DNA of 64,000 nt, from the NCBI GenBank assembly GCA_019058315.1, contig JAHPZH010000001.1:881432-945431 (forward strand), read 5' to 3'. A model generated the notes under the pieces. The model ran no database searches and was not told the DNA's origin. It worked only from the letters and a program-made list of their open reading frames with translations. Of the stretch, positions 7,332-8,841 are shown piece after piece. Within the stretch, counting starts at the first letter, position 1. The number at the start of each line of letters is the position of its first letter. This DNA comes from Candidatus Helarchaeota archaeon. Lineage in GTDB: Archaea > Asgardarchaeota > Lokiarchaeia > Helarchaeales > RDOG01. A program made the position numbers and the translations under genes.

Positions 7332-8015
7332 TTAAAGATTAATAAGTTCTTTTTTATTTGCTTGATTAATTGCTTCCTTCAATCTGTGTTGCCAAGCGTG
7401 AATTCTATCCACTTCATCAAAAACTTTGCGTTCTTCCATTCCGTAATCAGTTACTTCTTGGATATTGTAGTAGTCGATATATTCTTCTTCAATCTTATGT
7501 CCTTGTTCACTTAGAGATTGCTTCATTTTGTATACTGGCATCACTGTTTGCCATTTTATGAATTTATCAGTAGTCTCTGTTATTTCAACACCTGTTGCTA
7601 ATTTTGGAATCGCTTGTGCAGCTTGTTCGAGCTTTGGTGCGATATCATTCTTCAAAACCAAGAGTTCCGGAACAGTTAATTCTTTTTCAGTACCATCTAA
7701 ATCTATAATTTTCGCTTTGGCTACTTGATTAGTTAAAGAAATTCTCAAAGCTAATTTTTTATCTTCATCTATTAATTCTTGTATTTTTTTTCTACATTCC
7801 TCGATTGTATAATTTCGGTCATAATCTTTTTTAGTTCCTGGGATTGGCTTGAATTTATCGTCTCCTTCGATCTTTTTTGTTTGATAACTGATAGTATCAC
7901 GACCTGCGAGTTTTAAACGATTAATCCAAGTTTGAATTTCTGCTTCTATTTGTTTACGTCTAGAAAACGCATCTCCTAAAGTTAAAGCGATTTTAAACAC
8001 CTCTAATACATTCAT
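7332..8015 (-). CDS. Conserved helical protein, possibly DIP1984/septicolysin-like
   Basis: A protein of 227 residues, mostly charged helices. The arrangement of an N-terminal LGDAFSRRKQIEAEI helix, then IQELIDEDKKLALRISLTNQ, then ELTVPELLVLKND recalls the DIP1984 (septicolysin-like) family, where RADLQ, INRTN and RD-L motifs occupy similar positions. This is a recollection of a pattern and not a firm match. The function is unknown. Its start lies only 22 bp from the first structured RNA of the neighbouring island, so their promoters must share or overlap sequence. Confidence 0.5.
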   Translation of the reverse strand: MNVLEVFKIALTLGDAFSRRKQIEAEIQTWINRLKLAGRDTISYQTKKIEGDDKFKPIPGTKKDYDRNYTIEECRKKIQELIDEDKKLALRISLTNQVAKAKIIDLDGTEKELTVPELLVLKNDIAPKLEQAAQAIPKLATGVEITETTDKFIKWQTVMPVYKMKQSLSEQGHKIEEEYIDYYNIQEVTDYGMEERKVFDEVDRIHAWQHRLKEAINQANKKELINL

Positions 8016-8036: not shown

Positions 8037-8242
8037 GGTGCCGGGGCTAGGGCGTCAAGGCTTGAAAGAGCCTTAATTAGATCTTGCTTACATAATTTAA
8101 TTTATATTATTTCTTAAAAATACTTAAATATAAAAATATCGCATACACCCATAAGCGCGGCGGACGCTTAGATAGACCGTCTAAGTTCTGTGCATTATTC
8201 GGATTACTGGTATACAACCTTCAATTCGATCCTGCCCCAGCT
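8037..8242 (+). ncRNA. Structured RNA candidate, copy 1 of a tandem pair
   Basis: A GC-rich island in AT-rich DNA with no coding frame. The ends pair in a long stem: 8040-8047 plus 8049-8051 with 8231-8241, one bulged base (T8048) and one mismatch. Inside are hairpin P2 (8057-8062 with 8069-8074, capped by a GAAA-type loop), P3 (8153-8157 with 8165-8169, loop CGGCGGA) and P4 (8167-8172 with 8180-8185, loop TAGACCG). The 3' strand holds TCAATTCGATCC, shared with copy 2. The GAAA cap argues for the plus strand. I cannot place it in tRNA, SRP, 5S, RNase P or a known riboswitch class. Confidence 0.6.
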
Positions 8243-8304
8243 ATAAAGTGAATTTCCCGTACTATTTAAATCTTTGGAAATTTCTTCGTTGTATTATGTT
8301 CAAA

Positions 8305-8318
8305 TTTTTTTTTCTTTA
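8305..8318 (+). terminator. T-tract downstream of RNA copy 1
   Basis: A run of nine T (8305-8313) followed by CTTT, about 60 bases past the closing stem of copy 1. Archaeal RNA polymerase often stops at such tracts without a hairpin. AT-rich background weakens the call. Confidence 0.35.
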
Positions 8319-8366
8319 ATCTATGATGATTAAATTATTAAAATAAAAAATGAATAAAAGTAATAG

Positions 8367-8565
8367 GGTGCCAGGACGGAGGTAAGTCAAGGCCTGACGG
8401 AGCCTTAAATTCGGATACACTTATTAATCTATTTTAAATAAGTTTTGAGACGTAAGGTTTACATCTTACAACCGTTGGAATGACGGATTCCAAGATAGAC
8501 CATCTTACAATTACCAAGTAAGGATATGAGTTCTACAACCATCAATTCGATCCTCGTCCTGGCGT
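8367..8565 (+). ncRNA. Structured RNA candidate, copy 2 of a tandem pair
   Basis: It is homologous to copy 1 and lies about 125 bp downstream. The terminal stem is fully paired: 8370-8378 plus 8380-8382 with 8552-8563, and a bulged G8379 at the equivalent place. Relative to copy 1, two stem positions change from G-C to A-U on both sides, and the third base pair is repaired. P2 is 8389-8393 with 8402-8406, P3 is 8475-8480 with 8488-8493 (loop TGACGGA), and P4 is 8492-8495 with 8503-8506 (loop TAGACCA). The AT-rich stretch around 8331-8350 is well placed as a TATA-type promoter for a start near 8366. Confidence 0.6.
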
Positions 8566-8623
8566 TATAAATAAGGTTTGTATTTTATTTAAAATTTTCC
8601 TATTAAATTGGAATTCAAAATCT

Positions 8624-8841
8624 AATATTGAAGGGGGTCAAAAAACGGCACAAATGATACAAGATGAGAGTAGAAACTCTTTATTTTTAAAAGTCGATGT
8701 ATCAAAAAAAGACGAAGTTAGAGCACTCATAAAGCAGTCAGTGGGCTATGCTCTAATGCAGCATCATTCGTCACAGGTCATAATTTAGTTGTTGATGGTG
8801 GATTTATCGCCAGTATTCCACCTCCAATACCACAGAAGTAA
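8624..8841 (+). pseudogene. Broken short-chain dehydrogenase/reductase (SDR) remnant
   Basis: Two SDR pieces are joined with a large internal deletion and a frame change. The first, in the frame of 8624, reads through EGGQKTAQMIQDES and LFLKVDVSKKDEVRAL, which is the beta3-alpha3 region ending in the conserved D-V-S. The second, in another frame from about 8757 to the TAA at 8839, reads NAASFVTGHNLVVDGGF, the SDR C-terminal signature. The Rossmann glycine motif, the YxxxK catalytic pair and over half the gene are missing. It is certainly non-functional as an SDR and sits directly after RNA copy 2. Confidence 0.75.

Follow-up and report, generated by a model that had tools for sequence, protein, structure and literature searches.

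The window analyzed here, a stretch of 64,000 nucleotides from Candidatus Helarchaeota archaeon, holds two copies of an element that, judged by comparison among genomes, is an undescribed structured non-coding RNA (ncRNA) family of Asgard archaea, about 190–240 nt long. The gene beside them, here called the linked gene, starts 25 bp from the elements and encodes a distant relative of the DUF6847/DIP1984 proteins. Three helices of the RNA (P1, P2 and P3) and a pseudoknot all covary. A literature search found no paper describing the RNA family.

An initial annotation, made from the window sequence alone, had described two homologous structured RNAs in tandem, of unknown class. Two elements of about 200 nt with paired ends were indeed present at this place, with a spacing of 128 bp (Table 1), and the assignment to an unknown class stands since Rfam yielded no known-family match and the homologues in other Asgard genomes retain the pairing. 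The terminal stem, P1, is found in both copies with one bulge each near its inner end, two of its pairs change from G-C to A-U between the copies, copy 2 gains one pair, and hairpin P2 and the strand TCAATTCGATCC are common to both, all as originally reported. A third P1 pair, described as repaired, is a C×A mismatch in the plus-strand reading; read from the minus strand, it becomes a normal U·G wobble. The tandem arrangement is real in this genome, whereas the other gene loci have a single copy. The elements and their covariation were thus recognized early; the coding strand, the pseudoknot and the link to the neighboring gene had been overlooked.

Fold and distribution of the RNA

P1 is a helix of 10–12 bp that closes the RNA, and its sequence is rewritten in nearly every genome. 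On the minus-strand reading, copy 1 has the strands GCUGGGGCAGG/CCU[A]GCCCCGGC and copy 2 has GCCAGGACGAGG/CCUC[C]GUCCUGGC; examples across genomes include GCCAGCACGG/CCGUGCUGGC, GCCGAAGCGGG/CCCGCUUCGGU, ACUGGAGUUGG/CCAACUCCAGC and ACCGGGAUGGG/CCCAUCCCGGC. Hairpin P2 has 5 bp, and its loop forms a pseudoknot with the strand immediately 3' of a GAUCRAA motif (e.g., UGAAGG/CCUUCA, GUGGAU/AUCCAC and UUGAG/CUCAA). When the strands of 14 homologues, taken from fixed windows, were paired with their own or with swapped partners, the mean duplex energy of P1 was −16.3 kcal/mol with its own partner against −8.2 kcal/mol when swapped (P ≤ 2e-4), and that of the pseudoknot was −6.3 against −2.9 kcal/mol (P ≤ 2e-4). 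The same comparison for P2 and P3 gave P = 5e-5 with strands that were picked by hand, which biases this test towards the model. Covariation in P3 was seen in 10 sequences. P4 is weaker: in the alignment used, four genomes (G043, G065, G192 and G071) do not keep its pairs. The fold z-scores of the two copies were moderate on both strands (−2.8 and −2.4 on the plus strand, −2.0 and −3.4 on the minus strand), and the case was therefore built on comparison, not on energy.

Homologues of the linked gene were found in 6 of 60 genomes in a first search, this one included, and then in 11 of the 228 genomes of the phylum, several of the genomes compared being incomplete. The element lies upstream of the gene, in the same orientation and 16–50 nt away, at all ten loci with intact upstream sequence (G000, the window's own genome, and G051, G005, G015, G043, G065, G192, G166, G168 and G071); the eleventh locus, in G013, has lost its upstream region at a contig end. 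The presence of the element before the same gene in every complete relative suggests an RNA–protein partnership. Named records among these genomes include metagenome-assembled genomes of Lokiarchaeota, Sigynarchaeum and Heimdallarchaeota. One public record labeled Bathyarchaeota (L054) matches contig C216 of G071, which is placed in the window's class, and the label is probably wrong. Among viral contigs, phages and plasmids there was no confirmed relative of the window protein.

BLAST of the pair of copies (546 bases) against 147 relatives returned nothing beyond chance matches of A+T-rich sequence within the variable arm. The covariance model used instead (R1) was built from an alignment of sequences with the bulges removed and includes the variable arm, so that its E-values are rough. 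With filters off it recovered the held-out loci of G166 and G168, both of which the default filters missed. In this genome BLAST found no further copies, and the model found exactly the two in the window. R1 also found four further, diverged copies, in G013, G022, G059 and G051 (genus g10), at 35–53 bits. These four (L072, L073, L074 and L077) stand alone: each is next to proA in divergent orientation, with a TATA box conserved at −31, and three of them lack a sense gene downstream. A homologue of the linked gene was not found in G022 or G059 in the 228-genome search, in which G059 was only 64% complete.

Strand, promoter and linked protein

The initial annotation implied an RNA on the plus strand, divergent from the linked gene, and this part of it is not supported. 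A TATA box (at least 7 of 8 positions matching TTTAWATA) lies 28–31 nt before the first paired base at 7 of 11 loci, or at 11 of 15 when the stand-alone copies are included, while other offsets average 0.55. On the minus-strand reading the helices contain 20 G·U pairs against 5 A·C (12 against 7 when first counted, on a slightly different set of helices). In addition, a start codon follows the 3' end of P1 by 16–50 nt, at most loci with a GGTGA resembling a ribosome site in between. Together, these three features assign the RNA to the minus strand and indicate that it would be the leader of the gene, with transcription proceeding from P1 and most likely starting at or near its first base. A plus-strand RNA is very improbable: although the helices can be drawn on both strands with similar plus-strand folding energies, the plus side has no consistently spaced TATA box, the divergent start codon comes as close as 16 nt to the end of P1, and the non-canonical internal pairs read as A·C on the plus strand and as G·U on the minus. 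Beyond the 3' end of copy 2, the minus strand has a T-rich stretch, read by eye, that would suit termination.

The product of the linked gene matched PF20935 (DUF6847) at E = 0.0078 and 16.6 bits, under the cut-off of 27, and had no NCBIfam match. By hhalign it aligned with L063, a canonical paralogue from this genome, at E = 2.4e-4 and a probability of 44%, over the N-terminal and central region and ending at the stretch LALRISxTN...DG...L. L063 itself matched NF038048 at E = 1.5e-13, under that model's cut-off, and the PDB structure 3kdq at E = 7e-5. AlphaFold2 predicted helices and long beta strands for the window protein, mostly with confidence (mean pLDDT 85.7). At about 7991–8015 the window has ATC after GAGGTG where homologues have ATG after the GGTGA site; use of the in-frame ATG at 8015 lengthens the protein by about 8 residues, and the difference could reflect an alternative start or a sequence error. 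Farther upstream, the decayed dehydrogenase listed in Table 1 is matched in G005 and G015 by an intact relative with the same position and orientation.

Table 1. Coordinates of the RNA copies, their parts and associated features (window positions unless a contig or locus is named)
Feature	Position	Strand	Details
RNA copy 1 (gene-proximal), P1 to P1	8040..8241	minus	~202 nt; 5' leader of the linked gene; R1 148.6 bits (training member)
TATA box, copy 1	8263..8270	minus	TTTAAATA; 29 nt upstream of first paired base
P1 5' strand, copy 1	8231..8241	minus	GCUGGGGCAGG; pairs with 8040–8051; covariation
P1 3' strand, copy 1	8040..8051	minus	CCUAGCCCCGGC, bulged A; covariation
Pseudoknot 5' strand, copy 1	8218..8224	minus	UUGAAGG, after conserved AUCGAA; pairs with P2 loop 8062–8069; own-versus-swapped test
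P2 hairpin, copy 1	8057..8074	minus	AAGGC[UCUUUCAA]GCCUU; loop is the pseudoknot strand
P4 and P3, copy 1	8153..8182	minus	P4 AGA/UCU, loop CGGUCUA; P3 AAGCG/CGCUU
RNA copy 2 (distal)	8370..8563	minus	~194 nt; own TATA box; R1 130.2 bits (training member)
TATA box, copy 2	8586..8593	minus	TTTAAATA; 30 nt upstream of first paired base
Pseudoknot 5' strand, copy 2	8539..8544	minus	UGAUGG; pairs with P2 loop 8394–8401
P2 hairpin, copy 2	8389..8406	minus	AAGGC[UCCGUCAG]GCCUU
P4 and P3, copy 2	8475..8505	minus	P3 UUGGAAU/AUUCCAA
Linked protein gene	7332..8015	minus	227 aa; distant DUF6847/DIP1984 relative; PF20935 below cut-off; profile comparison
Decayed short-chain dehydrogenase	8626..8841	plus	tblastn E=6e-6 over C-terminal 24 residues
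3' element, L063	1470-1235, G000:C5	minus	z=−0.95
3' element, L078	1930-2155, G002:C281		z=−3.6
Bacterial 3' elements, start	L081 2460; L085 1960; L083 1972; L084 1966; L086 1663; L082 1948; L087 1651

Candidate functions and the elements beside canonical DIP1984 genes

The canonical DIP1984 genes examined also have structured neighbors. Directly 3' of two such Asgard genes, L063 (G000) and L078 (G002), lies a different conserved structured element; the two share ACCGTGGAT, GTTGGG.TGCTTTA, TTAAGGCTCAC and the pair ATCAAATTC/ATTCAAATTC. The L078 element closes with TGTAGCGAA/TTCGCTACA, and the L063 element also contains a T-arm-like GGTTCGAGTCC. A third canonical Asgard gene (G071) is cut at a contig end. 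Seven DIP1984 loci on bacterial plasmids (two of Picosynechococcus and one each of Streptomyces, Mycobacterium branderi, Paracoccus, Acinetobacter lwoffii and Enterococcus faecium) have an RGCGN internal loop with flanking covarying helices in the 3' intergenic region. The helix anchored on this motif gave −17.9 with its own partner against −8.6 when swapped (P = 1/720, six loci), whereas an unanchored test for longer-range duplexes in canonical DIP1984 3' regions beat shuffles in only two of nine loci; the claim of a 3' element therefore rests on the motif-anchored helix and on the conservation between L063 and L078. Rfam had no match in the first six plasmid 3' loci, a scan that covered all but Enterococcus. 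These few loci, with motifs picked by eye, are suggestive of a general pairing of DIP1984-type proteins with structured RNA.

The bacterial RGCGN/(U)GA internal loop, set between covarying helices, resembles a kink-turn. Plasmids held no confirmed relative of L063 or L079, and three weak phage matches to L079 looked like coiled-coil matches and were set aside.

We propose that the ncRNA partners a DUF6847-type protein as a ribonucleoprotein (RNP), a reading that on sequence evidence we regard as an even call. The RNA would bind the protein as its partner RNA; in the leader copy one promoter would yield both RNA and message, and copies that stand alone, like copy 2, would yield RNA only. We favored an RNP for three reasons: a separate TATA box serves copy 2, some copies stand alone, and the canonical DIP1984 genes examined have a different structured element on their 3' side. 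More tentatively, and with confidence a little below even, we suggest that bacterial and archaeal DUF6847/DIP1984-type proteins may be dedicated partners of adjacent large structured RNAs, lying 3' of the gene in canonical members and 5' of it in the Asgard branch, which would constitute a previously unrecognized, widespread RNP system.

Several observations weigh against an RNP. The window protein has no recognized RNA-binding fold and only a weak Pfam match, and Foldseek found no significant match for it in the PDB. In the stand-alone copies beside proA, P1 is degraded, with the own partner ranking 10, 6 and 2 of 14, and the G022 copy has had its 3' half replaced; based on these two features, some of the stand-alone copies may be decaying. 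Any homology between the 5' elements of Asgard archaea and the 3' elements of bacteria is putative. Finally, the 5' leader position suits cis regulation equally well.

A cis-acting leader, that is, a riboswitch or autoregulatory element that controls the DUF6847-like gene via the P1/P2 pseudoknot, with copy 2 as a duplicated leader, is the foremost alternative, and we consider it possible but doubtful. Each gene-linked copy lies immediately upstream on the sense strand with its promoter before the RNA, P1 is followed at most loci by a ribosome site of the GGTGA type and a start codon, and the pseudoknot with its closing helix resembles a ligand-binding core. Such a leader would not, however, account for the stand-alone copies beside proA that lack a downstream sense gene (their function being putative), nor for the TATA box and T-rich end of copy 2. 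No expression platform was obvious by eye, since P1 ends ahead of the ribosome site, and the association with a single gene family is unlike that of most metabolite riboswitches.

A type III toxin-antitoxin-like cassette, in which the RNA neutralizes the protein encoded after it, is improbable. It would fit a pseudoknotted RNA directly 5' of a small same-strand gene, the patchy spread (11 of 228 genomes) and the stand-alone RNAs, but neither Pfam nor PADLOC revealed a ToxN-type family, there was no fold match, the RNA copies are spaced units of ~200 nt instead of short tandem repeats, and an RNA where the gene was not found is unexpected for an addiction pair.

That the element is a diverged known RNA (RNase P, signal recognition particle, tmRNA or tRNA), or that it is a DNA-level repeat or the end of a transposon, is hardly credible: the layout of P1 and pseudoknot is reminiscent of several known RNAs, but Rfam 15 gave no match at the gathering cut-off in the window and 15 related loci, with the best sub-threshold matches looking like chance, ARAGORN found no tRNA or tmRNA in the window, and the G·U pairs and promoter fit RNA and not DNA. 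An RNase P-like reading, based on vague motif similarity, was dropped as the true RNase P RNA of this genome lies elsewhere (contig C5 of G000, 158.8 bits with the RNaseP_arch model, whose only other match, at 9.9 bits, is also not here).

Comparison with known systems

The type III toxin-antitoxin systems ToxIN, CptIN and TenpIN have a pseudoknotted RNA 5' of a small same-strand gene and a patchy distribution, a likeness by description only; their RNAs are short tandem repeats where the window RNA comes in ~200-nt units, and the window protein lacks a ToxN-type family match. Structured leader RNAs, including riboswitches and protein-binding leaders, are alike in their 5' position, pseudoknotted core, upstream promoter and ribosome site past the closing stem; they differ in that the window family has gene-less stand-alone copies and no Rfam entry, identifiable expression platform or ligand. 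In Ro60 with Y RNA or YrlA, and in OLE RNA with the Oap proteins, the gene of a structured ncRNA adjoins that of its protein. The window locus has no recognized TROVE or Oap protein and its RNA is another one, with no match in Rfam.

Few large structured RNAs are conserved across lineages, and those that are usually prove important, as for RNase P, tmRNA and OLE, and the family described here would add an undescribed RNA to the archaea closest to eukaryotes. Members of the DIP1984 family are frequent on Acinetobacter plasmids, and the structure solved for the family (3kdq) has gone unexplained; DUF6847 was named in no paper found, and the papers naming DIP1984 or septicolysin probably mention them only as annotations. 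The RNA–protein pairing is thus a testable lead on the role of DIP1984-type proteins. The closest likeness of the window protein is to this family (PF20935, NF038048, 3kdq): it shares with the canonical paralogue the central region LIxEDxxLALRISxTN...DGxExxLTIPELLxLKN, while window-type proteins are longer (216–227 against about 150–166 aa), with an extra C-terminal part and sub-cut-off Pfam scores, and the RNA stands 5' of the Asgard window-type gene but 3' of the canonical gene.
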